A stretch of DNA of 64,000 nucleotides from Edaphobacter sp. 4G125 (GTDB taxonomy: Bacteria; Acidobacteriota; Terriglobia; Terriglobales; Acidobacteriaceae). Both the position numbers and the translations under genes were made by a program. The notes under the pieces were generated by a model that was not told the DNA's origin, ran no database searches, and saw only the letters and a program-made list of their open reading frames with translations. Shown one piece after another: positions 2,006 to 49,055 of this stretch (positions are counted from its first letter, which is position 1; the number at the start of each line of letters is the position of its first letter). The stretch is from the NCBI RefSeq assembly GCF_014274685.1, contig NZ_CP060393.1, positions 1,361,501 through 1,425,500 on the forward strand, given 5' to 3'.

Positions 2006-2932
2006 TTAGAGGGTAATCATCACTACTGCCGCAACCGCTACCACCATTCCGAATCCCTGTCGTCGTGTCGGACGTTCATGCAGCATCCAGGCCGCCAGCA
2101 GGATTGTCGATGCAGGATAGAGCGAGGCCAGCACTGCGGCGACATCCAGCCTTCCGGCTCGGGTGGAGGCGATAAAGAGCAGGTTGCCGCAGGTGTCCAG
2201 AAGCGCGGTCGAAAAGGCCCAGAGCACTGCCCGGCGGGGTAACCATCTATCCGCGCTATACCGGTTACCCGTGATCGCCATCAGAATCAGGAAGAGCGAG
2301 CATGTCGTCAGGCTCCCGATCCTGGCTGTTGCCATGGGCCAAATGATTCCAGCGGTTCCGGCAAATTTCAGCAGGGTAAAGTAAACACCGAAACCTGCAC
2401 CTGAGAGGATCGCAAGCCAGGTCGTCTTTACGGGAACCGGTTTGGCCTCGGGATTTTCCCCCGCGGCGATCATCCAGATGGCAACTCCGGCTACCACGAA
2501 GCCGGCGATTCGCCTCCCCCCGGGCCAGCCTTCTTGAGCGCTCGAGATCGCTGCGGGGATGGCTGCTGCCAGCAGGCCGCTGACCGCAGCCGGAACGCCC
2601 ATCGCTCCCTGGGCCAGCGCAATGTAAAAGCCGGTGAGTGAGAGTCCGCCCATGACACCGGCCAGGAGCCCGCAGTAGAGCGGTATGCCATGAGGAAGTG
2701 GATCTCCGCGCAGAGAAGCGAGGGTGATCAGTACGCAGAAGCTGACCGCATGGCTGGTGAGGACGACGCGCAGTGTTCCCGGGACGGAGCCACCGGCGCA
2801 CTTCGTCCCCATGCCTCCAGAGAAGTCACCGCCGCCCCAAAGGACGGCGGCGGATAGTGCCAGAAGTGCGTTTGCTTGAAAGACCACCAGTCTATTTATC
2901 TGGAGTGACGGTATTGACCGGGCGGGAGTCAC
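2006..2932 (-). CDS. EamA/DMT-family membrane transporter
   Basis: A protein of about 300 residues with ten hydrophobic segments, beginning near NALLALSAAVLWGGGDFSGG, fits the ten-helix drug/metabolite transporter superfamily (two EamA repeats). A C-terminal GMVVAVAAVVMITL helix closes the second repeat. The substrate cannot be told from sequence. The ATG at 2932 overlaps the end of the upstream VWFA gene (stop at 2892) by 41 bases. A GTG at 2887 just after that stop is an equally plausible start and would remove 15 residues. Both genes run leftward and are probably co-transcribed. Confidence 0.8.
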   Translation of the reverse strand: MTPARSIPSLQINRLVVFQANALLALSAAVLWGGGDFSGGMGTKCAGGSVPGTLRVVLTSHAVSFCVLITLASLRGDPLPHGIPLYCGLLAGVMGGLSLTGFYIALAQGAMGVPAAVSGLLAAAIPAAISSAQEGWPGGRRIAGFVVAGVAIWMIAAGENPEAKPVPVKTTWLAILSGAGFGVYFTLLKFAGTAGIIWPMATARIGSLTTCSLFLILMAITGNRYSADRWLPRRAVLWAFSTALLDTCGNLLFIASTRAGRLDVAAVLASLYPASTILLAAWMLHERPTRRQGFGMVVAVAAVVMITL

Positions 2933-4190
2933 TCGCCGAGGGATAGTAACCCTTCTTGGCGATGACCGTCAGATCCGGCCGCAGGATGCGTACATCGATC
3001 GTGCGGTACTTGCCATCGATAAACGGCTGATGGGTGTAGTAGCCGATCAAGTACTGTGTCCGAACCTCTTCGAAGATCTTCTGGAAGCTCTGCTCGATGC
3101 CACGCTGACGGAACTCTGCATCCAGATTGCCTCCAGTTTCAGAGGTATAGATGGGTAATACGTTGTCGCGCATGGTGTATGGCAGGTGGATCTTGTCGAG
3201 GAATCCAAGGACGGGGAGCGAGGAATCGCCAACGAGGGTGCCGAATACGGAGATCTGGTGTCTCAGAAGATAGCTAACGACCTCCTTCGTCTTGACCTTC
3301 GATCCATACTCCTTACCGTCGCTGATCACGTAGATCACGCGCCGACGGCCTCTCTCGCGCGTGGTCAGCGACTTGGCCGCCTCGAAGATGGCGTCGTTCA
3401 GGGTATGGACTTCCTTCGGAACCTTCAACTCGATGGCCTGGCTGTTGCGGATAGGCGCGGTATTTGGGTCAAATTGACGTCCATTGATTACCGTGGTCTG
3501 TGCCAGCGGTCCGCCCATGTTCATGTAGACTTCGCGACCCGTGCTCTTGGAGTTGTTGAGTGCATACTCCAGACGGGCGCTGTTTGCGGCGGTAAAGTCT
3601 GTCCTCTTCTGAGGTCCGTTGTTGTAAGTGTAGACCGCGACCTCGTCGTAGGGGGCGAAAGCTCCCTGGAGTGCTGCCAGAGAGTTATTGACCTTGGCCA
3701 TGTTGTCCGGTGTCAGGCTCTGATCGATCACGATAGCGACCGAGAGTGGTGCAGGATCCACGGAGAAGTTGGTAATCCGCTGCGGTTGGCCGTTCTCATA
3801 GACCCGGACTTCGCGCCAGGTAATGCCCGCAACCTCTTGTTGTTTCTTATCTTTGACGGTGAAGGGAACTTCGACAAAGTTCGTCCGCACAACCAGTTTA
3901 AAGGCGTTAGCTCCCATATCTGGCGGTGGACCTTCGTCCGGCTGTTGCTGCTGAACGGCAGGAGCCGCGGGTTGGGCGGGTGCTTGCTGATCGGCTGGAG
4001 GATGATCGCCGTTAGAGGTTGGGGTCGTTCCCATGCCCGGCCTGACGGTATCAAGAGTGGGCAGGCCAACCTGCGGTCGTGGCGCATCCGGAATCTGTTG
4101 CGCTGCCGAGGCCTCCTCGGTCGCTTTTTGTGTCTGCTGTCCCAGCGCCATAAATGCCAGAACTCCCGCCAGTACGCTTTGTCTTACCAA
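2892..4190 (-). CDS. Secreted VWFA-related protein, acidobacterial type
   Basis: The 432-residue protein starts at a TTG behind a G-rich stretch and has a short hydrophobic N-terminus (VLAGVLAFMALG). A Gln/Pro-rich linker (about 20-95) leads to the NFVEVPFTVKDKKQQEV strand that opens the VWFA-related domain named from Acidobacteria. The metal site is DQSLT at residue 156 instead of the usual DxSxS, so it is only partly conserved. VIYVISDGKEYG supplies the later aspartate, and the protein ends with the family motif QYLIGYYT..DGKYRTIDVR and a KGYYP tail. It probably acts as an extracellular adhesion or assembly domain. It is divergent from the paralogue at 4414. Confidence 0.85.
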   Translation of the reverse strand: MVRQSVLAGVLAFMALGQQTQKATEEASAAQQIPDAPRPQVGLPTLDTVRPGMGTTPTSNGDHPPADQQAPAQPAAPAVQQQQPDEGPPPDMGANAFKLVVRTNFVEVPFTVKDKKQQEVAGITWREVRVYENGQPQRITNFSVDPAPLSVAIVIDQSLTPDNMAKVNNSLAALQGAFAPYDEVAVYTYNNGPQKRTDFTAANSARLEYALNNSKSTGREVYMNMGGPLAQTTVINGRQFDPNTAPIRNSQAIELKVPKEVHTLNDAIFEAAKSLTTRERGRRRVIYVISDGKEYGSKVKTKEVVSYLLRHQISVFGTLVGDSSLPVLGFLDKIHLPYTMRDNVLPIYTSETGGNLDAEFRQRGIEQSFQKIFEEVRTQYLIGYYTHQPFIDGKYRTIDVRILRPDLTVIAKKGYYPSASDSRPVNTVTPDK

Positions 4191-4413
4191 TCAACCCCCC
4201 TGCAAGCTTCCACCGGCAATCTGCTCCGAATGTTAGCAACTACCAGAGTACCAGCGCCGGGGTGCTGAAGCTATCCCGGCGTTACCCTATCTTTAGACTT
4301 CTCCCACCTATTGGATGTTGTGCTTTGTTATATCGTTACACCGCCAACGCCAAGAGGGTCCTCTGGATGATTTTTTCGCTGACTTAGAGGCCGTTTCGCT
4401 CGTCTATCCCCAT
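4191..4413. promoter_or_regulatory. Divergent intergenic region between two VWFA genes
   Basis: This 223-base gap must hold the promoters of both outward-facing VWFA genes. I saw no convincing -35/-10 pair or palindrome, and no further gene. Confidence 0.3.
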
Positions 4414-5439
4414 ATGCGCCCTTTTCGGAGTGTCCTGGCTGTCTTGTGTCTCTTATCTTTTGGCCCTATTGTTCTGTCCGCCCAGGAAGCTCCGTCGCCC
4501 GGAGGACCTCCACCTGCCAGCAATGCTGCTCCAGAGCAGCCGGTGGACATTGGCGATACCCAGACACTGAAGGTAAACGTCAACCTGGTGAACGTCTACT
4601 TTTCGGTCCGGGATAAGAACGGCTACATCACAAACCTGCACAAGGACGACTGCCAGATCTTCGAAGACAAGGCCCTGCAGAAGACCAAGAACTTTACCCA
4701 GGAGAAAAACCTGCCGTTGACGATTGGAATTCTGCTGGACACCAGCGGCAGCCAGCAGAACGTTCTGCCTCTGGAGCAAGATGCGGGAGCAGAGTTTCTG
4801 AAGGACGTGTTGACTCCCAAGGATGAGGCATTTCTGATTTCGTTCGACATTAATGTGGATCTGCTGGCCGACTATACGAACTCACCGAGTGAACTGCGAC
4901 GAGCGATGCAGAAAGCCTCGATCAACACAGGCGCGGGGACAGGCTCGGTCACGGGCAACAGCACGCCTCGGGGAACACTGCTTTACGATGCCGTCTACCT
5001 GGCGGCGCACGATAAGCTGCGCCAGGAGGCAGGACGAAAGATCCTCGTCATCCTGACCGATGGGCAGGACCAGGGATCGCAGGAGAACATCAGAACCGCC
5101 GTAGAAGCTGCACAGAAGTCCAACGCGATTGTTTACGTCATCCTGATTGCGGATCGTGGCTTCTATGGCGGATTTGGCTACTATGGCGCGGGTGATATGG
5201 ACAAGCTGGCGAAGGAGACCGGCGGCCGCGTGATCAATGTAGGGAACAACGGCAAGAAGCTACAGGACGCCTTCAACCAGATTCAGGACGAGCTGCGAAC
5301 GCAATATCTTGCCAGCTATACGCCGACAAACCTGAAGGCTGATGGCACCTTCCGCGCCCTGAATATCGATTGCGGCAAGGATACGAAGGTGCAGGCGAGG
5401 AAGGGATACTACGCTATCGCGGACTCAAACAGCGAGTAA
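4414..5439 (+). CDS. Secreted VWFA-related protein, acidobacterial type
   Basis: I chose the ATG at 4414 because it gives a clean signal peptide (MRPFRSVLAVLCLLSFGPIVLSAQ). An in-frame ATG at 4315 would add 33 polar residues without one. The 341-residue product has the strand VNLVNVYFSVRDKNGY, then a canonical metal site DTSGS at residue 109, ILVILTDGQDQGS, and the closing family motif RTQYLASYTPTNLKADGTFR..KGYYA. Unlike its divergent neighbour, all three metal-binding elements look intact. It is probably a secreted or surface-attached VWA protein; the ligand is unknown. Confidence 0.88.
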   Translation: MRPFRSVLAVLCLLSFGPIVLSAQEAPSPGGPPPASNAAPEQPVDIGDTQTLKVNVNLVNVYFSVRDKNGYITNLHKDDCQIFEDKALQKTKNFTQEKNLPLTIGILLDTSGSQQNVLPLEQDAGAEFLKDVLTPKDEAFLISFDINVDLLADYTNSPSELRRAMQKASINTGAGTGSVTGNSTPRGTLLYDAVYLAAHDKLRQEAGRKILVILTDGQDQGSQENIRTAVEAAQKSNAIVYVILIADRGFYGGFGYYGAGDMDKLAKETGGRVINVGNNGKKLQDAFNQIQDELRTQYLASYTPTNLKADGTFRALNIDCGKDTKVQARKGYYAIADSNSE

Positions 5440-5524
5440 GAAAGTTGCAGGTTGTCGCGGGTATCGATAAAGGGTGCCTGTTTGTTTTCGGCAGATACAG
5501 GGATTCTTTGCCGCCGTTTTGCCT

Positions 5525-5562
5525 GGCTCAGAATGACGATGACAATCCGCAGATCCTTCGGC
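5525..5562. repeat. Dispersed intergenic repeat (CTCAGAATGAC / CCGCAGATCCTTCG)
   Basis: The two short words CTCAGAATGAC and CCGCAGATCCTTCG occur here. Related words recur at 11495-11543 and, in the opposite sense, at 60426-60528. All copies are intergenic. The rest of the 5440-5718 gap shows no gene. Confidence 0.55.
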
Positions 5563-5718
5563 TTCATTTGGGCGCGCGAAAGCATACCCGAATGAAGCTC
5601 AAGACGACATCTTTAAGAGGTAAGCGAGATTTCCCCATACCGCCTAGTTATAGGTTGTCAGTTGAACTACTTCTTTTCCACACAAATGACAAACTGCAAC
5701 CCTGTAACTGACCACTTC

Positions 5719-6420
5719 CTAGGCATCCATCGCTCCGCTATAGACGGCCATTCCTGCGACGGCATCGACGCCCATCTGGTCGAGCGCATCGACTTCGGCG
5801 CGTTCCTTGATGCCGCCCGCGACGATGAGTTGTTTGGCTGTGGTGGCGCGCAGGATTGCGGCAACATCGATAGGGAATCCAGTCATGGTGCCTTCGGTAT
5901 CGACGTGCGTGTAGAGGAAGGCTGCACAGTAGTCCTCAAGCCAGGTGACGGCCTCTTCGGGCGTGAGTGCGACGTTTTCTTTCCAGCCGCGCACGGCGAC
6001 CTGACCGCCTTTGGTGTCAACGGAGAAGACAAGCTGCTCTTCACCGAGGGCATCGCGCAGTTTTTGAGCGAAGTCGAGATTGATGAGCGGATGACGCTTG
6101 CGGTCGGCCTCGTTGTCGCCGCCAAAGAGTGAAGAGCCATAGATGAGGCGCCTGGCGCCAAGATCGAGCACGCGCCTGCCGTCTTCAGCAGTGCGCAGAC
6201 CGCCGCCAACCTGGCAAGGCAACTTCGAGGTGAAACGCGAGATCAGATCTGCGTTTGAACCTTGGCGCATGGCAGCGTCGAGATCGATGAGCTGCACGAG
6301 CGGGTATTTCGAGAAGCGTTCGATCCAATAGTCGAAGTCGTCGAAGGCGAGCTTGAGTTTTTCGCCCTGGACGAGCTGGACGATGCGACCTCCCATAAGG
6401 TCGATGGATGGAATTAACAA
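5719..6420 (-). CDS. hisA: Phosphoribosylformimino-AICAR-P isomerase HisA
   Basis: HisA catalyses the Amadori rearrangement of ProFAR to PRFAR, the fourth step of histidine synthesis, in the cytoplasm. The 233-residue (beta/alpha)8 protein begins LIPSIDLMGGRIVQL, where the Asp is the catalytic base. It has VQLIDLDAA, the phosphate loop QVGGGLRT, the second acid in VFSVDTKGG, and the C-terminal phosphate motif IVAGGIKE. The start is TTG at 6420, backed by GGAGAAGGA. It is the last gene of the his operon, separated from hisF by a palindromic repeat. The usual bacterial length is about 240, so it is complete. Confidence 0.95.
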   Translation of the reverse strand: MLIPSIDLMGGRIVQLVQGEKLKLAFDDFDYWIERFSKYPLVQLIDLDAAMRQGSNADLISRFTSKLPCQVGGGLRTAEDGRRVLDLGARRLIYGSSLFGGDNEADRKRHPLINLDFAQKLRDALGEEQLVFSVDTKGGQVAVRGWKENVALTPEEAVTWLEDYCAAFLYTHVDTEGTMTGFPIDVAAILRATTAKQLIVAGGIKERAEVDALDQMGVDAVAGMAVYSGAMDA

Positions 6421-6466
6421 GGGTCCTTCTCCTGTGTATACGTGATCGGTCGGGAAACAATGACTT

Positions 6467-6528
6467 CAGGGGCTGAAGCCCCTTTTGCTGCGTTTTTGTT
6501 CGGCACGGCTAAAGCCGTGCCCTTAACA
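6467..6528. repeat. Double-palindrome REP-like element, copy A
   Basis: An imperfect palindrome (CAGGGGCTGAAGCCCCT, 6467-6483) is followed by a perfect 20-base palindrome GGCACGGCTAAAGCCGTGCC (6502-6521) and CTTAACA. The same arrangement recurs at 8949-9011. The element lies between hisF and hisA and contains the hisF stop codon. Confidence 0.8.
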
Positions 6529-7302
6529 GGGCAGACGCACAGAGACTCCTGTGCGCTGAAGTTCTGCTTTAAGTTCACGTGAATCTGTTATGCCGAAGTG
6601 AAAGATGCTGGCGGCGAGTGCAGCGTCTGCTTTGCCGCGGCTAAAGACGTCCGCGAAGTGTGCTGCGGAACCCGCACCGCCAGAGGCGATGACGGGGATT
6701 TGCACGGATTGGGAGACAAGCGCGGTCAGCTCGCAGTCGAAGCCCGACCGCATGCCGTCGGTGTTCATGCTGGTCAAAAGGATCTCGCCTGCGCCGCGCT
6801 GTTCGGCCTCGCGTGCCCATTCGATCACCTTGCGGCCCGTGGGCTTGCGGCCACCGGCGACGAAGACCTCGGCATCGCCTACGGGGTCGGCAGAATTTTC
6901 GGCGCGTCGTGCGTCGATGGCGACGATGACGGCCTGCGCGCCGAAGCTGGCGCCGATCTCGCTGATCAGCTCGGGCCGCGCGATGGCGGAGGAGTTGATG
7001 CTGACCTTGTCGGCTCCTGCGTCGAAGACGGCTGCGGCATCTTCGGCAGAGCGGATGCCTCCGCCGACGGTGAAGGGAACGAAGAGCGTTGCGGCAGTGC
7101 GCTTCACGGTGTCGAGCAACGTGCCGCGGCCCTCATGTGTTGCGGTGATATCAAGCAGCACGATCTCGTCGGCTCCTGCAGCAGCGTGGCGGTGCGCGAG
7201 TTCGGCGGGGTCGCCCGCGTCGATGATGTCAACGAACTGGATGCCCTTGACGACGCGTCCGTCACGGACGTCTAAACACGCGATAATTCTCTTCGTTAGC
7301 AA
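6523..7302 (-). CDS. hisF: Imidazole glycerol phosphate synthase cyclase subunit HisF
   Basis: HisF joins ammonia from HisH to PRFAR, giving imidazole glycerol phosphate and AICAR. The catalytic aspartates are visible in IACLDVRDG and VIVAIDARR, and the phosphate loops in [12 protein letters not shown] and [10 protein letters not shown] set the start at the TTG at 7302, preceded by GGAAGGA, because it gives the family N-terminus (M)[10 protein letters not shown] and 259 residues. A GTG at 7320 would add six. The first 11 codons are unusually AT-rich (CTA, AGA, TTA). The same 11 residues are encoded a second time just upstream, at 7358-7326. The stop lies inside repeat copy A. Confidence 0.93.
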
Positions 7303-7358
7303 GGGATGTTCCTTCCGCACTTTGCGTCAAGGCAGGCGATGATGCGTTTGGTCAGCAT
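7296..7358 (-). CDS. 20-codon ORF repeating the HisF N-terminus
   Basis: An ATG at 7358, preceded by AAGGA, overlaps the TGA of the upstream lipoyl-like gene (ATGCTGA). It encodes [11 protein letters not shown], then nine unrelated residues, and stops with a TAA that overlaps the TTG start of hisF (TTGCTAA). The first 11 residues match HisF, while about one third of the 33 bases differ, all silently or in the start codon. It is out of frame with hisF. Its position is that of a normal coupled hisF start, so it may be the old start left behind by recombination, or a coupling mini-cistron. Whether the peptide matters is unknown. Confidence 0.6.
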
Positions 7359-7645
7359 GGTTGAATCCTTACGGGTGTGGAGGCGCTTACGACGCGCTCG
7401 GCTCCTTCGGCGACGATACGTGCGATGGGCTCATCGGGCGAGAGGGTATCACCGGTCGATGCGAACCACTCGGCGACGAGGCCTTGCAGTGGCGCGCGCA
7501 GATGAAACTCGTTTTTGCCGTCCATCAGTACGGCGATATTCTGGCCGGTTCCGACGAGCGTTCCTTGAGGTATAAGTTGCTGCGTGAGTTTGTACGCAGG
7601 CTGAGGCGACTCTTCGGCGAGTTCGAGTTCGTAAACAAAGGGCAT
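7352..7645 (-). CDS. Small biotinyl/lipoyl-like domain protein in the his operon
   Basis: This 97-residue protein is almost entirely one biotinyl/lipoyl-type barrel: a charged strand, TLVGTGQNIAVLMDGKNEF, then RAPLQGLVAEWFASTGDTLSPDEPIARI, which matches the second half of BCCP-like domains. The EAMKM or DKA hairpin carrying the modified lysine is absent. The only nearby lysine is in MDGKNEF, about two residues out of register, so modification is doubtful. The gene starts three bases after hisH stops and ends over the ATG of the HisF-like mini-ORF, so it is translated within the his operon. Its role is not known. Confidence 0.65.
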   Translation of the reverse strand: MPFVYELELAEESPQPAYKLTQQLIPQGTLVGTGQNIAVLMDGKNEFHLRAPLQGLVAEWFASTGDTLSPDEPIARIVAEGAERVVSASTPVRIQPC

Positions 7646-7648
7646 TCG

Positions 7649-8257
7649 CTAAAGCTCCACGAAGTTCTTGAGTATCTGGAGACCAACGGCGCTGGACTTC
7701 TCGGGGTGAAACTGCACGCCCATCACGTTGTCGCGCTCGACGACAGCGGTAAAGTTGCCGCCGTAGCTGGTGGTAGCGGCGGTATCGGCGCTCACTGGCG
7801 CGCGCCAAGAGTGCGTGTAGTAGACGAAGCCGCCATTCTGGACTCCACGCAGCAGGCGTGAGTCCTCGCGGATGTTCTCGAGCGAATTCCAGCCTACGTG
7901 AGGAGATTTGAGTTCTGCTCCATTGAAAGCGGCGGGGAAACGCTCGCATTTTGCGGCAAAGTGCCCGAGGCCTGCGGTGTCAGGTGCTTCGGTTGAACCT
8001 TCGTACAGCCACTGCAAGCCCACGCAGATGCCGAGGAAGGGAGTGCCCTTCGCTACTACCTCGCGTACTGCGCCGGTAAGCGAAAGGTCCTCAAGCAACT
8101 GCGTCGCCTGAAAGTGTCCCACGCCGGGAAGGACGATCTTCGTCGCGTTACGCACGTCGTCCGGCGACTGCGTGACGTGCGTCTCCGCGCCGAGGTAATT
8201 CAGCGCTTTGAGTACGCTGGTGAGATTGCCCGCTTTGTAGTCGATGACTTGAATCAT
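7649..8257 (-). CDS. hisH: Imidazole glycerol phosphate synthase glutaminase subunit HisH
   Basis: HisH hydrolyses glutamine and channels ammonia to HisF. The 202-residue class I amidotransferase has the nucleophile in GICVGLQ (Cys78) and the His-Glu pair in FHPEKS (His184, Glu186). The oxyanion region is LPGVGHF. The ATG at 8257 gives the family start MIQVIDYKAGNL; an upstream in-frame ATG at 8389 would add 44 unrelated residues and reach back into the hisB end. It is followed after three bases by the lipoyl-like gene and then hisF, so the two subunits of the enzyme are separated by one small gene. Confidence 0.94.
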   Translation of the reverse strand: MIQVIDYKAGNLTSVLKALNYLGAETHVTQSPDDVRNATKIVLPGVGHFQATQLLEDLSLTGAVREVVAKGTPFLGICVGLQWLYEGSTEAPDTAGLGHFAAKCERFPAAFNGAELKSPHVGWNSLENIREDSRLLRGVQNGGFVYYTHSWRAPVSADTAATTSYGGNFTAVVERDNVMGVQFHPEKSSAVGLQILKNFVEL

Positions 8258-19154: not shown

Positions 19155-20483
19155 TCAGGATTGAGTTTGCTGTTGTTTGAGTCCGCGAGTTGCAATGCTT
19201 ACTAGAGCCGCGATCAGAGCAAGAACACTCACTGCATAAAGCCCATTGGAGAAGCTGTGTGTTGCTTCTCGAAGTCGTCCAGTAATGTAAGGTCCCAGAA
19301 AGCCCCCAAAACCTCCAAGGGTGGTGATCAGAGCGACTCCCGCAGCGGCTGCTGTTCCGGCGACGGTGCGCGTCATCAAAGCCCAGAAGGGCCCCATAGT
19401 GCTCCATAGACCCATCGCCGCCAGACAAAATGCGCATAAAGCGATGGAGACGCTACCTGCCATTGCGGCCCAGGCAAAGCCAGCTGCGGCTAACGCCATG
19501 CATCCAGCCAAGTGCCCACTTCGTTCGTTGGAGCGATCTGAACTCCAGCCGATGAAGACGGTGAAGGCCGCCGCAAGAAGATATGGCAATGTGGAATAGC
19601 GTGCAATCATGCTCGCGTCATGTCCGGCATTGCTCGAAAGACTATCGAGCATGAGCGGCATCCAGAGATTAACGATGTAGACGCCAATCTGGATCGAGAC
19701 ATAGACAAAGGCAAGCATCCATACCGCAGGAAGCCGAAAAGCATCGGTAAAGGCGTGATGTTTCGTTGCACCATAACGAGCGCGATCCAGCTCAAGCTCG
19801 TTGGTCAGCCAATGTCGTTCTTCCGCAGTCAGCCAATCGGCCTGTTCCGGACCATCCTTGAGGATAAAGAGCACGGAGACGCCTAGCAGTATGGTGGGAA
19901 TCCCCTCAGCAATAAAGAGCCACTGCCATCCATGCAAACCCCAGAGTCCATCCAGCTTTAGCAGAGCGCTGGAGAGTGGACCACCGACGACTCCGGCCAG
20001 CGAAGTTGCCGTCATAAACCAAGCTACGGCACGTGCACGCTCGTGGGAAGGAAACCAGTATGTGAGATAGAGCAACATGCCAGGGACAAATCCCGCCTCG
20101 CCGACGCCGAGGAGAAATCGGAGCGCGTAGAACGAGCCGGCTGAATGGATGAATGACATGCAGGAGGCAATCAGACCCCAGGTAATCATGATGCGTGCAA
20201 TCCAGAGGCGTGTGCCGACGCGCTGTAGCACCAGATTGCTCGGCATGTCGAAGAGGGCATAGCCGAGGAAGAAGATTCCGGCGCCGGTTCCATAAACGGT
20301 GTCACTGAAGCCGAGCTGCCGCTTCATATCCATGGCGGCGAAGCCTACATTGACGCGATCGACGTAGGCCACGATGTAAAGCAGAAACAGGTAGGGAATG
20401 AGCCGCCACGTGATCTTGCGGTAGAGAGCGCGCGCATGAGTGGAGTCAATATCGGGTGTATTGGTTATTTCGCTCGGCGTCAC
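19155..20483 (-). CDS. MFS transporter, anion:cation symporter-like
   Basis: The 442-residue protein has twelve hydrophobic segments. It carries the signature of the ACS family (phthalate, tartrate and hexuronate permeases): YIVAYVDRVNVGFA in helix 1 and GAGIFFLGYALFDMPSNLVLQRVGTRLWIARIM. FLLGVGEAGFVPGMLLYLTYWFP follows, then WLTAEERHWL in the central loop. It probably imports an organic acid with protons. Its substrate cannot be assigned. The apparent start is a GTG at 20483 with a GGGAG too close to be ideal. It lies 18 bases after ada and may be read through from it. Confidence 0.85.
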   Translation of the reverse strand: MTPSEITNTPDIDSTHARALYRKITWRLIPYLFLLYIVAYVDRVNVGFAAMDMKRQLGFSDTVYGTGAGIFFLGYALFDMPSNLVLQRVGTRLWIARIMITWGLIASCMSFIHSAGSFYALRFLLGVGEAGFVPGMLLYLTYWFPSHERARAVAWFMTATSLAGVVGGPLSSALLKLDGLWGLHGWQWLFIAEGIPTILLGVSVLFILKDGPEQADWLTAEERHWLTNELELDRARYGATKHHAFTDAFRLPAVWMLAFVYVSIQIGVYIVNLWMPLMLDSLSSNAGHDASMIARYSTLPYLLAAAFTVFIGWSSDRSNERSGHLAGCMALAAAGFAWAAMAGSVSIALCAFCLAAMGLWSTMGPFWALMTRTVAGTAAAAGVALITTLGGFGGFLGPYITGRLREATHSFSNGLYAVSVLALIAALVSIATRGLKQQQTQS

Positions 20484-44435: not shown

Positions 44436-45827
44436 TCACTCGTGAACGCTGTTTTTGAAGATGCGAACGCCACTCTTGGGAGTCCACAGAGAACGACGAA
44501 TTGGCAATCCGACAGAGAATTGCAGATTCGGTGTGTCCGGCGTCAGTCCGACCCCAAAGCTCAGGTCGAGGGTCCTTCCAGGCGCGTAGAGATACGACAT
44601 GCCGAGTCGCAGGGAACCTTCAACGAGATATGAAGCAGGCACAACCTGCCCATTCACAGTCGTGGATTGAGTGAAGCGTTGATCCCAGCCGATCGTCATC
44701 GAAGTTTCGGGATTCAGAGAGAGGATGGAGCCAAGCTGGAAGCCGATAGCATTACCCGGGTTGAAGTGACCCGGAATCGAAATCGGCTGGCCGTTTGAAT
44801 CGGTCGACTGAATCGTATGGGTTCCTTTCAGGTTCGCGGTGTACGAGAGATTCCCGAAGAAGACAACGGGGTCATTCGACTTGGCTGCCGTTAGATTTCC
44901 CTGGACCGCATAAAAACCGGTACCGAGCGCAGTCTGGCTGCTATTGAGGTTGAAACTGTCGATTCCAGTGGTGGTCTTGAAGCGCACGTTGGCCAGCAGG
45001 TCAGGGACGCGATCATGCTCCATGGTCAACTGGCGCGAAAGGCCGAAGGCGATATCGCCGAGCCCGAAAGTACTCTGCGAGGTCTGGTTGTTCTCGGCAT
45101 CGACCGTACGATTCAGTTGGTAACCATAGGGAACATAGGTATCGAACTGTAGCTTGTGGGGAAGTCCGAGGCGAGCGGTGAAGGTCGGGAGCAGGAGATC
45201 CTGGCGGACGCGTTCCGAAGTAATGTCTCCTACGACAAGCACTGGCAGCAGGGCAAAGCCGTCGATGGTGAGGTGATCGGAGGACGAGCTGAAATATGAG
45301 GTTGTATTGTCAAGCTCAAGAGTTCCTGAGGGAAGCAGAAGGCCGCCACGAACGATAAGTGCCTGATCGAGTGCCTGGCTGGCCTGCCGCTCTTCTGCGT
45401 CGTATCCGGAGTTGCGCACCACGGCTGTCGCCGCTGCCAGCGTGTTCGCATGGGGAGTCGCAGCCGCCGGTGCGCTTACGCTGGAAGAGGCCGGCTGAGC
45501 CGAGATGAGGTCGCGAGGAGACGACGTAGTAAAGTTGCCTCCATTTACGCGCCACTCCAACTCCTGTACGCGTTGCAGAAGATTGCGAATGATTGCATCG
45601 CGCTCGCGTAGCGCATCGTTCATACGTTGATTGACTTGCATCAACAGTTCCTGTTGTGAAAGAGGCTGCTGGGGGGATTGCGGTTGCGCATGTGTTGGCT
45701 GCGGATTGGCCGATTGATTCTGAGCCAGAGATGTATGTACCCCACAAAACAGGAGAGCCCAAAACATCAGCCTTGCGGAAGAGAGTTGCCGAAGAGAGTG
45801 CATCGATCTGGCCTTTGTTTGCTGCAT
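44436..45827 (-). CDS. FapF-like outer-membrane beta-barrel with coiled coil
   Basis: The 463-residue protein has a signal peptide (LMFWALLFCGVHTSLAQ), a Gln/Pro linker and an N-terminal coiled coil (about 57-95, SQQELLMQVNQRMNDALRER..LLQRVQELEWRV). The C-terminal half is a beta-barrel of amphipathic strands with KLQFDTYVPYGYQLN, FGLGDIAFGLSRQL, and a last strand ending NLQFSVGLPIRRS. A trimer-forming coiled coil before a barrel of the Phenol_MetA_deg type is the layout of FapF, the amyloid secretion channel of Pseudomonas. It starts 11 bases after the C39 peptidase gene. The FapF assignment is by architecture and neighbours. Confidence 0.7.
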   Translation of the reverse strand: MQQTKARSMHSLRQLSSARLMFWALLFCGVHTSLAQNQSANPQPTHAQPQSPQQPLSQQELLMQVNQRMNDALRERDAIIRNLLQRVQELEWRVNGGNFTTSSPRDLISAQPASSSVSAPAAATPHANTLAAATAVVRNSGYDAEERQASQALDQALIVRGGLLLPSGTLELDNTTSYFSSSSDHLTIDGFALLPVLVVGDITSERVRQDLLLPTFTARLGLPHKLQFDTYVPYGYQLNRTVDAENNQTSQSTFGLGDIAFGLSRQLTMEHDRVPDLLANVRFKTTTGIDSFNLNSSQTALGTGFYAVQGNLTAAKSNDPVVFFGNLSYTANLKGTHTIQSTDSNGQPISIPGHFNPGNAIGFQLGSILSLNPETSMTIGWDQRFTQSTTVNGQVVPASYLVEGSLRLGMSYLYAPGRTLDLSFGVGLTPDTPNLQFSVGLPIRRSLWTPKSGVRIFKNSVHE

Positions 45828-45838
45828 CGTTTGTTGGA

Positions 45839-46525
45839 TCAGTAGAGATAGTTCGGCGGAATCGCGACTCCAATCTCGCGTTGAATGATGCTGGGATCGG
45901 GAATTGTGCGGGATGCGATCGAAGGTCTCTTTTCGGTCAACATCAGGTCTGTCGGCGGATGAACGATGAAGACGATGCCTTCTTTCCATAGCGATTGAAA
46001 GCGATCGACCCGCATGGTGATGTTTCCGAATCCGGGATCGGCGATGATAACGTGCCCCTCCACGATCTTGTGTACGACGATGAAATGATCAAAGCCCTTC
46101 ATACGGATTGGCACGATGACAGAGGTTTTCTGTTCGGCAAGTTCTTCGATGGACATCCCCGTGAAACCCTCTGCGTGATAGCCGCGTGCCTGGGCGAAGC
46201 GTTTTAGATCCAGCAGCGAGAATCCGCCGCGGGCACGCACTCGAACCGGATCAACTCGATGCAGGATCCAAACGACGACTGCAGTTTCCGGGGTATTGTC
46301 TTTGAATTCATAGGTCAGCAGCGTGCTGAGAGCAGCAGCACCACAACTCATGTCCCACTTCTGCCGTATTACACCTTCTTCGCGAATCTCTTTGAGGCTG
46401 CGGATCGGTTTGCTGTATTCGTCTTGAGCTTGAGAGAAGACCACACTGGGAAAGATCAGAGCGCCCGCCATGACCAGCGCAAGCGCTCTGTACCAGGACC
46501 TGAAACGAACTGCGAAGAGCGTCAT
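45839..46525 (-). CDS. FapD-like C39 family cysteine peptidase
   Basis: The 228-residue protein has a signal peptide (ALALVMAGALIFPSVVFSQAQ), so it acts in the periplasm. A single C39 peptidase domain follows: Gln55 (oxyanion) and Cys61 in RQKWDMSCGAAALSTLL, His147 in GFDHFIVVH and Asp163 in IADPGFGNI complete the catalytic set. Bacteriocin C39 domains are fused to ABC exporters. Free secreted ones occur as FapD in functional amyloid operons. Its ATG shares one base with the stop of the upstream small secreted protein (TGATG), so the two are translationally coupled. Substrates are probably the neighbouring secreted subunits. Confidence 0.82.
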   Translation of the reverse strand: MTLFAVRFRSWYRALALVMAGALIFPSVVFSQAQDEYSKPIRSLKEIREEGVIRQKWDMSCGAAALSTLLTYEFKDNTPETAVVVWILHRVDPVRVRARGGFSLLDLKRFAQARGYHAEGFTGMSIEELAEQKTSVIVPIRMKGFDHFIVVHKIVEGHVIIADPGFGNITMRVDRFQSLWKEGIVFIVHPPTDLMLTEKRPSIASRTIPDPSIIQREIGVAIPPNYLY

Positions 46526-46956
46526 CAGTGTTTCCCGTTAAGGTTCGACTGCGTCAGAGTTCCGACAGTCGAGTTGATATTGACGTTGAGATTCAGCAGG
46601 ACATTGATCTTCGAGTTCACTGCGTTAATATTCACCAGTGAACTAAGATTTTGTTCTGCATTGCCATTCATGCTGAGTGTGCCCATTGTGGTGCCCCCAA
46701 TAGGGCCGCTCTGCAGGGCAAGTGAGCCATCACTCGAGACCAGGCCGTTTGGAGTCTGAGCTTGGCCTTGGAATTTAACAACTCCATTGGAAACCTCGGC
46801 AGAGATTGTGCCGGCGGTCACTTTGTCGAGCGCGGCATCGTTCATGGGTTGTGCTTTGGCGCGCGCCTTGGATTGGACCTTGGTTTGGGCCCAGCCTGTC
46901 GGCGTCACAGCAAAGCTGAACAGCATCAGGATCGCTATCACGAAAGTTCGTCGCAT
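46525..46956 (-). CDS. Small secreted amyloid-like subunit (FapB/FapE-like position)
   Basis: The 143-residue protein has a signal peptide (MRRTFVIAILMLFSFAVTPTGWAQ). The motif ALDKVTAG (42-49) follows, then a Gly/Ser/Asn-rich region ending in an Asn/Val/Ile stretch (LVNINAVNSKINVLLNLNVN) and TLTQSNLNGKH. The alternating Asn-hydrophobic pattern is typical of amyloid-forming secreted subunits. It shares DKVTA and a TLTQ-S/T-N end with the large protein upstream. By analogy it could be a minor or nucleating subunit. AAGGAGC lies six bases before the ATG and next to an 8-bp hairpin. It has no clear known family. Confidence 0.65.
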   Translation of the reverse strand: MRRTFVIAILMLFSFAVTPTGWAQTKVQSKARAKAQPMNDAALDKVTAGTISAEVSNGVVKFQGQAQTPNGLVSSDGSLALQSGPIGGTTMGTLSMNGNAEQNLSSLVNINAVNSKINVLLNLNVNINSTVGTLTQSNLNGKH

Positions 46957-46965
46957 AACCTGCTC

Positions 46966-47022
46966 CTTGCATTCGGTAATGCAAGGCGTGTGTAAGAAAC
47001 TCGATGCTTCTTACACACGCCT
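46966..47022 (-). promoter_or_regulatory. Intercistronic hairpins between the two subunit genes
   Basis: AGGCGTGTGTAAGAA (46984-46998) pairs perfectly with TTCTTACACACGCCT (47008-47022) directly after the large subunit stop. A second stem, CTTGCATT-CGGT-AATGCAAG (46966-46985), abuts the ribosome-binding site of the small subunit gene. No T run follows either, so they probably stabilise mRNA or tune the subunit ratio. Confidence 0.75.
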
Positions 47023-47027
47023 GCCTG

Positions 47028-48596
47028 TTAGCGATGCTGCGAGATGCTGTTGGTCTGGGTCAGCGTCGGAGTCGAGTTCATATTCGAGGTCCGCGCTACG
47101 TTGATTCCATTGGCAACCATGCCGCCGGCTGCATTGACGATGTTCATCGCCGTCGCATTGGCCAGTGCAGAGCCTGCCAGGGCAACGGTGTAGTTGTTGG
47201 TGGTTGTTACGGTCGAGCCGTCCACAGCAACATTCTGTGCGCTTGCATTATCGAAACTCACTGCTCCCTGAACGTTGTAGACCTTGCTCGAGGACGTTAC
47301 TGTGTGATCCGAATCAGAATTGGAGTCGGTTGTGGCCAGGCTCGCAGATGTCGACTTAGCGGAGCTGGTAGAGTGCGTCGTCGTGCTGGAATTGGAATCA
47401 TTCTTCGCCGACTGAGATGCATTGGAACTCGCACTGTTCGAGCTGGAAGCGCTCTGCTGTGCCTTGTTCTTATTGGAAGAGTCCGCATTCTGCGATGCAT
47501 TGTTGGAAGCAGAATTTGAGGACGAATTTGCGCTTTTCGCAGCATTCGAAGCCGAGCTCTGGTTGGAAGCAGAGTTGTCAGTGGATGCCGACTGATTCGC
47601 GCTGCTGGAACCATTGCTTGAAGTCGCGGAGTTGCTGGCGGTGTTATTGCTGGAGGATCCGCCCTTCGATGCGGACAGATTATCTGCTCCATTGCCTGTC
47701 GTCGTAGAGGTTGCGCCGTTGCTGGACGATCCATTGTTGAAGGCCGAGTTTCCTACGGAAGTAGCGCTGCCGTCAGGAGCATTGGCGGAAGCGGTGGCTC
47801 CGCTGGCGCTGGCCGACGAAGTCGCGTTGCTGGTCGCGCTCTTGCTGGCGGACGAGTTATCGGTCGACGAAGCCGATTTCACGTTGCTGGCATTTTGCGC
47901 GTTATTCGAGGCAGAAGCATCCGTTGCTGAGGCCGACTTGCTGGCTGTATTGGATGCGGACGAGGTGGTCGCTGAAGAAGAGCTCTTGCTGGCGCTCTGC
48001 TGCTGAGCAGCATTCTTGCTGGCGCTGGAGCTGTTCGACGAGCTACTGTTTGCCGACTTGGTGTTCGACCAATTGTCGGTGTGGTTGGAGGTGTGATTGA
48101 ACGAGGCGTTCAGGCTTGATGACGAGGTGCTGGTCGTCGTCACATCTGATGCGCTCGAGGTATTGAGCTGTGAGTTTGCCCCACGTTTGTAACCGGTCAG
48201 CGAAGCGCCTGCCGGATCGGTTTGGGTGATGGCATTTCCCTGGCCGACGTCCGCGCTGGCAGTATTGCCTTGCGTTGTCAGGCTGCCGTTATAAACATTG
48301 ACGCCATTGGCAACTGCAGCATCGGAGGAGCTGACGATATTGATACCCTTCGCAGCATTCAGCGCGCTTCCTGAGAGCGAAACGCTGCCCGTATTGTTTT
48401 CTGTTACGGTCGAATTGTTTGCTGCCAGTGCGGAGCTTTCCTCGCCAGCTGCAGTGACTTTATCCATCTGGTTGTCGCGCAACGCGTGGGTCTTGCTCTG
48501 CTTTTGCGGATGCGAGTTCGATTTGCTCTGACCGTAAACCTGTCCAGAGACGACTAAGGCGGTTACGAGAGTGGCGGTAGTAACAAGATTTTTCAC
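47028..48596 (-). CDS. Large Ser/Asn/Ala-rich amyloid-like subunit (FapC-like)
   Basis: I chose the GTG at 48596, five bases after GGAGG, because it gives the signal peptide MKNLVTTATLVTALVVSGQVYG; the product is 522 residues. MDKVTAAG (44-51) follows. Residues 62-105 and 461-504 are two copies of one 44-residue unit, aligned without gaps at about 50 percent identity (GSALxxAxxxNIV, VANGxNV). Between them lie about 300 residues almost wholly of Ser, Asn, Ala, Thr and Lys. Repeats separated by a long disordered linker are the plan of FapC, the main fibre subunit of Pseudomonas functional amyloid. The C-terminus is TLTQTNSISQHR. Confidence 0.72.
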   Translation of the reverse strand: MKNLVTTATLVTALVVSGQVYGQSKSNSHPQKQSKTHALRDNQMDKVTAAGEESSALAANNSTVTENNTGSVSLSGSALNAAKGINIVSSSDAAVANGVNVYNGSLTTQGNTASADVGQGNAITQTDPAGASLTGYKRGANSQLNTSSASDVTTTSTSSSSLNASFNHTSNHTDNWSNTKSANSSSSNSSSASKNAAQQQSASKSSSSATTSSASNTASKSASATDASASNNAQNASNVKSASSTDNSSASKSATSNATSSASASGATASANAPDGSATSVGNSAFNNGSSSNGATSTTTGNGADNLSASKGGSSSNNTASNSATSSNGSSSANQSASTDNSASNQSSASNAAKSANSSSNSASNNASQNADSSNKNKAQQSASSSNSASSNASQSAKNDSNSSTTTHSTSSAKSTSASLATTDSNSDSDHTVTSSSKVYNVQGAVSFDNASAQNVAVDGSTVTTTNNYTVALAGSALANATAMNIVNAAGGMVANGINVARTSNMNSTPTLTQTNSISQHR

Positions 48597-49055
48597 TTCT
48601 GCCTCCACGGCTTGGATTTTGGCAATACTTCACCGTCTATGCAGCGCAGACTGCATAACGGCCAAAATGATGCCGTTCAGGCTTTCCCACAAGCAGCCAG
48701 CACAGCATCGCGGATTCAGTCCCAGGGAGCTTCTATTCAGAAGCGCAAAAACATTTCGATTTCCACTCGCCTTCACTGCTCTCAGAAAAACGTGCAGCGA
48801 TCATGGAAGGAAAAGAGCCCGATTCACAAAGCTGTTGTAAGAATCAGCTTCACATCGCTTGTAGCTCGACGCGTGTGAAATGGTGGCCCAGATGACGGTT
48901 TCGCTCTAGTGCAATCTCTGTGCCAATCCTATGTCTTTCAGATCCTGCGTAATTGAGCAGCCGAAAAAGAGAAATTCGCAAAGCTTTGCAGGCAAAATGT
49001 GAAAATTCAGTTTTCCAGCAATTCTTTGCGTATAGATATACAGAGATAGTCTGGA
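48597..49055. promoter_or_regulatory. Upstream region of the amyloid-like operon
   Basis: This 459-base gap holds a sigma-54-type promoter (48908-48925) and a long leader. Further upstream are the palindromes GCAAAGCTTTGC (48977-48988) and GTATAGATATAC (49031-49042), which could be activator sites. No gene was seen. Confidence 0.5.
48908..48925 (-). promoter_or_regulatory. Sigma-54-type promoter of the amyloid-like operon
   Basis: Read leftward, TTGGCACAGAGATTGCAC matches the -24/-12 consensus TGGCACG-N4-TTGCW at every conserved position (GG and GC with correct spacing). Transcription would begin near 48898, about 300 bases before the first gene. Confidence 0.65.

Follow-up and report, generated by a model that had tools for sequence, protein, structure and literature searches.

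The question raised by a compact four-gene locus in Edaphobacter sp. 4G125 (Acidobacteriota; Acidobacteriaceae) is whether functional amyloid secretion of the Fap type, known from the Pseudomonas fapABCDEF operon, extends to this bacterium, and if so with which cargo. The locus lies within 64,000 nucleotides of contig NZ_CP060393.1 (positions 1,361,501 to 1,425,500; the window, to which all coordinates below refer unless another locus is named), where the original prediction had described it as a Fap-like amyloid secretion cluster. We conclude, with a probability of about 60%, that it is a secretion cluster with a channel and a peptidase related to FapF and FapD, likely exporting two mutually homologous proteins, A and B, as an extracellular fibre. 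According to the passages of the earlier surveys used here, Fap was confined to three proteobacterial classes (Dueholm 2013), fapD and fapF homologues were then reported as co-localised in five further phyla, unnamed there (Rouse 2018), and a 2025 survey added Desulfobacterota, Nitrospirota and Bacillota (PMC12822426). The cluster falls outside the criteria of the latter survey because these require homologues of the FapB/FapC repeats, which the cluster lacks. The string “acidobacteri” has no occurrence in the main text of that paper, and a literature search returned nothing relevant on FapC or functional amyloid in Acidobacteria, nor on amyloid in Edaphobacter.

The four leftward genes of the original prediction were confirmed as open reading frames (ORFs) on the minus strand, together spanning 44436–48608: A (47028–48608, 526 aa, GTG start), a secreted cargo and predicted major subunit; B (46525–46956, 143 aa), a small secreted cargo and predicted minor subunit; D (45839–46525, 228 aa), a C39 peptidase of the FapD/FilB type; and F (44436–45827, 463 aa), a FapF-type outer-membrane channel. 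Signal peptides, among them those of A and D, were assigned by eye. The coupling is real as well: 71 nt separate A from B, the stop of B overlaps the start of D, and 11 nt separate D from F. In the complete set of sequence for this organism (one contig, 4.25 Mb) D and A each match at one locus, and a search for a second copy of A found none besides the present one. Searches for sigma-70-like promoters gave none on either strand (2.5 in shuffles), those for terminator-like sites gave two, on the plus strand only (4.8 in shuffles), and an Rfam search gave no matches.

The relationship to Fap is clearest in the machinery. Against NCBIfam models, D scores best with FilB (117.8 bits), followed by FapD (101.8 bits), the next family reaching 37.1 bits. 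Both scores lie below the curated cut-offs (475 bits for FilB, 330 for FapD), and D is therefore assigned to the FapD/FilB type rather than as an equivalog. Residues Q55, C61, H147 and D163, which we take to be catalytic, are invariant in 14 of 14 aligned sequences. F scores 101.3 bits with FapF (cut-off 700) and 62.3 bits with FilC (cut-off 630), again short of either cut-off. The barrel and coiled coil foreseen for F are borne out by structure prediction, in which a long helix read as a coiled coil (residues 58–94, 45546–45656) is followed by a plug-like helix (residues 144–160, 45348–45398) and a beta-barrel (residues about 168–446, 44490–45326), the last also placed by structural alignment to FapF, which starts at model residue 149. 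The model of F thus has the three elements of a FapF-type channel. In both cases the similarity to FapD/FilB and FapF, respectively, exceeds that to other C39 or porin families. The Fil “putative pilus” system (NF050078, NF050079) resembles the cluster in that FilB is the top family for D, but differs in that FilC lies far under FapF for the barrel and neither the FilB nor the FilC cut-off is reached.

What the machinery carries is a different matter. The description of A as a repeat-plus-linker protein stands: behind the signal peptide and a C39-type leader lie lobe R1 (residues 60–130, 48219–48431), a low-complexity linker (residues 145–430, 47319–48176) and lobe R2 (residues 448–526, 47031–47267), the lobes being delimited by profile comparison and the linker by composition. 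The 286 residues of the linker are 36% Ser, 18% Ala and 15% Asn, and the distance between R1 and R2 differs among A homologs. R1 and R2 are homologous (hhalign 98.8%), as are A and B (hhalign 96.6%, E 6e-10); B compares with R2 at 57.5% using an acidobacterial B set and at 88% using a wider set, and weakly with R1 (3.7% and 24.1%, respectively). With residues 1–150 of A as query 12 homologs were found, and with B 685 proteins at E ≤ 0.01. No relatives of A or B were found in the PDB at E 10. The Pfam family DUF6160, presumably FilA-like, matches B only at E 0.089.

The cluster shares with Pseudomonas Fap a FapF-type channel, a periplasmic C39 peptidase, a repeat-plus-linker protein, a small partner and a single operon, but has no FapA or FapE, and its subunits are not homologs of FapB or FapC. 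Thus, of the Fap plan laid out in the original prediction, the equation of D with FapD and F with FapF stood, while that of A with FapC and B with FapB failed every test. FapB and FapC models matched none of 18 A and 46 B proteins at E 10; comparison of whole-protein profiles of A and B with those of FapB and FapC gave 0.5–1.2%, against 98.1% for the FapB–FapC control; and repeat profiles gave at most 9.1%, against 59–98% in Fap–Fap controls. The imperfect repeats of FapB and FapC were not found in the cluster, and all three kinds of comparison reject A and B as homologs of these two proteins. B was also considered as FapA, which was not shown, the profile comparison giving only 3.6%. The claim that FapA and a separate FapE are not evident holds in a profile scan of 663 frames of the window, where FapC found nothing, the best E-values for FapB and FapE were 0.87 and 0.79, and the best FapA frame (E 0.013) lay at 19291–19599, about 25 kb from the block; FapA is often absent even in true fap operons. 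The reference FapA, FapB, FapC and FapE genes were taken from loci of Pseudomonadota detected with the FapD model, which matched 38 genomes (20 read, 8 of these over the cut-off), and the E-like genes in addition from L003, L005 and L058; the Fap genes of L102 are confirmed by NCBIfam, and those of the other loci were placed by gene order and alignment. Judged by sequence, the machinery is Fap-type and the predicted subunits are a separate family.

Could A and B nevertheless be FapC and FapB, diverged beyond recognition and forming the Greek-key Fap amyloid? Relatives of FapD and FapF are present, A has repeats with a variable linker, A and B are low in charge and rich in Asn, and FapB and FapC diverge fast according to passages of PMC3792158. 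The profile and model comparisons above speak against this reading, as does the presence of two lobes in A when about 94% of FapC proteins have three (as given in part of PMC12392863), and we regard it as quite unlikely.

A further difference from FapB and FapC lies just behind the signal peptides. Among the 120 B homologs listed of the 685, the signal peptide and the stretch that follows vary in sequence and length and are succeeded by a near-invariant block: column 38 is Leu in 77 and Met in 43, column 39 Ser in 81 and Asn in 34, then D40 (120), L43 (118), D44 (119), V/I46 (120), T47 (119), A48 (118) and position 49 (Gly in 100, Ala in 17, Ser in 2). Bacteriocin double-glycine leaders follow the register L−12, S−11, L/M−7, V/I−4, G/A−2 and G/A/S−1. 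The B block fits this register with Ala rather than the usual Gly at −2, and ends in Edaphobacter sp. 4G125 as MNDAALDKVTAG (residues 38–49, 46810–46845, minus strand; predicted cut after G49); the leader of A shares the register and ends as LRDNQMDKVTAA (residues 43–54, 48447–48482, minus strand; predicted cut after A54). In the low-confidence structure model of B, helix 40–47 ends just ahead of the predicted cut. A loose leader pattern is found in 119 of 120 B and 12 of 13 A proteins, against 2.9% of shuffled B and 0.25% of shuffled P0004, and in the window in 2 of 145 ORFs when placed at residues 20–90, or 4 of 214 over whole frames, A and B included.

A strict pattern matches 46/46 B and 12/18 A proteins. 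In hand-picked alignment rows of the Fap proteins it is present in all 8 FapA and all 15 FapE or E-like sequences, and in none of 11 FapB and 10 FapC. The fuller count, covering every profile-found gene in 24 loci, places FapA in 12 loci, with the pattern in 10 and behind the signal in 9 (the L115 match was not placed); FapA of L113 and L114 has the register by eye with Tyr at −7, and the gene at the FapA place in L110, which has no profile match, shows no clear leader by eye. Relatives of FapE were found in 24 loci, with the pattern in 20, of which 18 lie behind the signal (the L002 and L109 matches being elsewhere); an RGR, RGK or RGG site stands in register by eye in those of L109, L111, L113, L114 and L002, and the relative of L121 was left unassigned. 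FapB and FapC frames match in 1/14 and 3/14 cases, and by eye none of these matches follows the signal directly. By this count FapA of L102–L109 and L112 and FapE of L102–L108, L110, L112 and L115 bear a double-glycine-type leader in the register seen in A and B; in the FapE alignment, the Gly of the leader motif is the only invariant column. That A and B bear a leader where FapB and FapC have none is a further point against the identification of A with FapC and B with FapB. The cleavage rule predicted for D appears well supported by these comparisons.

The target of FapD was called unclear in 2017 (PMC5557850) and undetermined in 2018 (PMC6173800), and a 2025 review (PMC12822426) states that FapD is thought to process FapE and FapF, as far as the passages of these papers used here go; a search of the literature since 2018 for C39 cleavage by FapD or of FapE gave nothing on point. 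The conserved leader, carried by named proteins and missing from FapB and FapC at that place, makes this question directly testable in a laboratory strain. A broader proposition, which we hold to be evenly balanced, is that FapD-family peptidases share one rule, the cutting of a bacteriocin-type double-glycine leader relocated behind a Sec signal; the targets would be FapA and FapE in classic Fap and the structural subunits themselves in the acidobacterial branch, with cleavage licensing export, and Fap, Fil, Nap and the present cluster would be one “Sec plus C39 plus FapF” type with exchangeable cargo.

In the sources used here, the nearest precedent for a C39 peptidase and a FapF relative serving double-glycine (GG) cargo is the Neisseria nap island (NapP, NapF, NapA–C), where these are joined with small GG-motif proteins, as described in passages of PMC11798529. 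By this precedent, B could be a bacteriocin-like peptide freed by the peptidase and channel and acting on cells rather than building a matrix, and its predicted size after cleavage, 94 aa, would suit such a role. The nap cargo, however, consists of cationic peptides below 10 kDa tied to autolysis, and no large linker protein is named in those passages. In the cluster, A has 526 aa and B about 94 after predicted cleavage (no search here was aimed at cationic GG peptides). A, with its 286-residue linker, is not peptide-like and shares the lobe of B, and the four genes stand without any further gene between them. Export of a peptide effector is, on this evidence, unlikely.

The distribution of the genes argues for a unit. 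Among 396 sampled genomes of the phylum, 40 have a D match at 1e-10 and 14 exceed 100 bits: the present genome, ten of the genus, one of the family and two of another family, f29. The remaining matches lie below 70 bits, several of them in frames of more than 700 aa, of the kind seen in ABC exporters. D is carried by 11 of 21 sampled genomes of the genus; the query P0002 alone found matches in 4 of 150 family genomes. All four genes stand in order in 13 of 13 re-read Acidobacteriaceae stretches with a strong D, the present one included (two frames share A in L049, and the stretch end truncates it in L060), and in 6 of 6 named acidobacterial loci, of which L012 lies on the same contig as L047. 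Since the order is kept in both sets, the block is not a product of chance. Similarity to FapD and FapF above other families and conservation of the four genes in relatives were the tests that the original prediction had set for itself, and as the machinery is closest to FapD/FilB and FapF and the four genes co-travel, it withstood them. The two f29 loci have D and F without A or B; one of them also has an E-like gene and, next to D, the gene of a small protein with a GG-type leader. For the five lone D-like matches of family f48 (L061–L065), the stretch read contained no F. All four genes were also found outside the phylum, in a deltaproteobacterial metagenome-assembled genome (MAG; L015, labelled Myxococcota), with two A genes, and in another genome of its phylum (L159). 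D matches at 1e-30 were found in 28 of 297 genomes of that phylum; among the 18 read, A and B are both present in one, B alone in another and neither in 16, and F lies within about 3.6 kb of D in 12. In Azospirillum soli (L016), D and F are accompanied by two small proteins with leaders.

Trees of D and F, built with 13 rows labelled canonical Fap (8 over the FapD cut-off) and 9 acidobacterial rows, place each set on one side of a supported branch (99/98 for D, 100/100 for F). These separate clades again distinguish the cluster from Fap and count against A and B being FapC and FapB. In the D tree the Edaphobacter sp. 4G125 sequence groups with Edaphobacter modestus and Acidobacteriaceae TAA 166. 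L015 and L016 join the acidobacterial side at 89/54 for D, with f29 genome G405, and at 97/91 for F; both trees carry a long-branch warning that includes L016 and G405. A third group (Cupriavidus, Croceicoccus, Polymorphobacter and others) is separate in both trees and includes the other f29 genome, G333, in the D tree (G333 was left out of the F tree). This group resembles the cluster in having a small leader-bearing protein beside the peptidase and a FapF-type channel, and differs in its E-like gene with a mostly RGG leader and in its large cargo.

The chromosomal site is also shared. The order acpS-F-D-B-A-DUF4352 gene-ABC ATPase is common to 13 of 18 other loci compared (L047, L049, L051–L056 and L009–L013, L012 and L047 being one contig), and was not seen in L014, L048, L050, L057 and L060; such constancy is unlike a mobile island and stands against the nap analogy. 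Ten members of the genus without D were compared at this site. Two keep decayed remnants: G034 (L133) a C-terminal piece of F (query 263–454), and G130 (L132) part of A together with an F broken into several frames; D and B were sought there and not found in either. In G504, G245, G473 and G254 acpS and the DUF4352 gene lie about 0.6–0.8 kb apart with no matches to F, D or B (A lobes were searched in G504 only); the distance in G286 is about 4.5 kb, and the surroundings of acpS in G339, G480 and G383 showed no DUF4352 gene. Loss of the gene set together fits one joint function.

These data have led us to propose a model whereby Sec would carry A, B and D to the periplasm, where D would cleave both A and B behind the VTA[A/G] that closes their double-glycine-type leader, which follows a Sec signal rather than occupying the N-terminus. 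The trimmed, low-charge, unfolded chains would then pass the FapF-type channel, gated by coiled coil and plug. Outside the cell the Asn/Val/Gly-rich lobes would stack, with A as major subunit exposing its long disordered linker and B as a minor or nucleating subunit. Because A and B lack FapB/FapC homology, the argument for fibre formation is one from architecture, on which a fibre is plausible. Instead of ever polymerising, the same proteins might act as a pair of adhesins, secreted or kept at the surface, with the linker as a stalk and lobes that bind a partner. Low-complexity Ser-rich linkers are common in adhesins, and the fold of B was not predicted with confidence; yet the sources, as far as used here, describe only fibre or peptide cargo for export of the FapF type with a C39 peptidase, which makes an adhesin pair improbable. 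If the fibre model is true, A and B would be a second subunit family on Fap-type machinery, a branch that surveys by FapB/FapC repeats (two of 2025: PMC12392863, PMC12822426) would miss.

In this model an excess of A transcripts would be kept by a hairpin in the A–B gap (46985–47022, minus strand; stem of about 17 bp, no T run). Strong hairpins were found in all 16 acidobacterial A–B gaps folded (−33 to −52 kcal/mol), although the sequences vary by lineage; L055 is identical to L056, and the near copies L047, L053 and L054 were not folded. In 12 of the 16 gaps none of 100 dinucleotide shuffles was as low (z −1.6 to −7.3), and 16 control pieces of the cluster gave z of −1.9 to 1.4. Since no T run follows, the hairpin is not an intrinsic terminator; it may be a decay block or partial attenuator favouring A over B.

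Several observations weigh against the fibre model and the cleavage rule. FapB/FapC homology of A and B was not found, and the structure model of B is poor (pLDDT 55.8), with no solenoid seen. The leader has Ala, not Gly, at −2. Its patterns were composed after the sequences were seen, and the strict one matches 2.5–9% of shuffles and misses 6/18 A, 2/12 FapA and 4/24 FapE; of the A misses, one comes from a stretch that lacks the N-terminus, and the other five differ by eye at −11 or −10. A broad pattern applied to all signal-like ORFs proved too loose (66/150 sense, 27/117 antisense) and was discarded, for which reason family-wise counts were used. Passages of PMC5557850 (2017) describe Fap proteins as without canonical C39 sequences, FapE having GG/GA motifs and lacking N-terminal peptides; Pseudomonas mass spectrometry there found peptides throughout FapA–D, which was taken as no processing and therefore argues against FapA cleavage. 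Within those passages, the leader found here is in line with the FapE result but at odds with the reading for FapA. As for the hairpin, z is weak in L009, L014 and L052 (−1.6 to −2.0), one of the 16 control pieces also had none of 60 shuffles as low (z −1.9), and no hairpin was found in the 20-nt A–B gap of L015.

Three minor observations were made at other loci. In L117 the genes for the large cargo, the small cargo and the FapD-like and E-like proteins occur a second time, in tandem, at 2688–8070. What appears by eye to be an NtrC/sigma-54-type regulator stands beside the FapD/FapF loci of f29 and the third group (L058, 3436–4761, and L121, 3–587). Finally, NZ_CP119142.1, NZ_CP119140.1 and NZ_CP104448.1 are filed as plasmids and, at 2.2–4.1 Mb, are chromosome-like in size.

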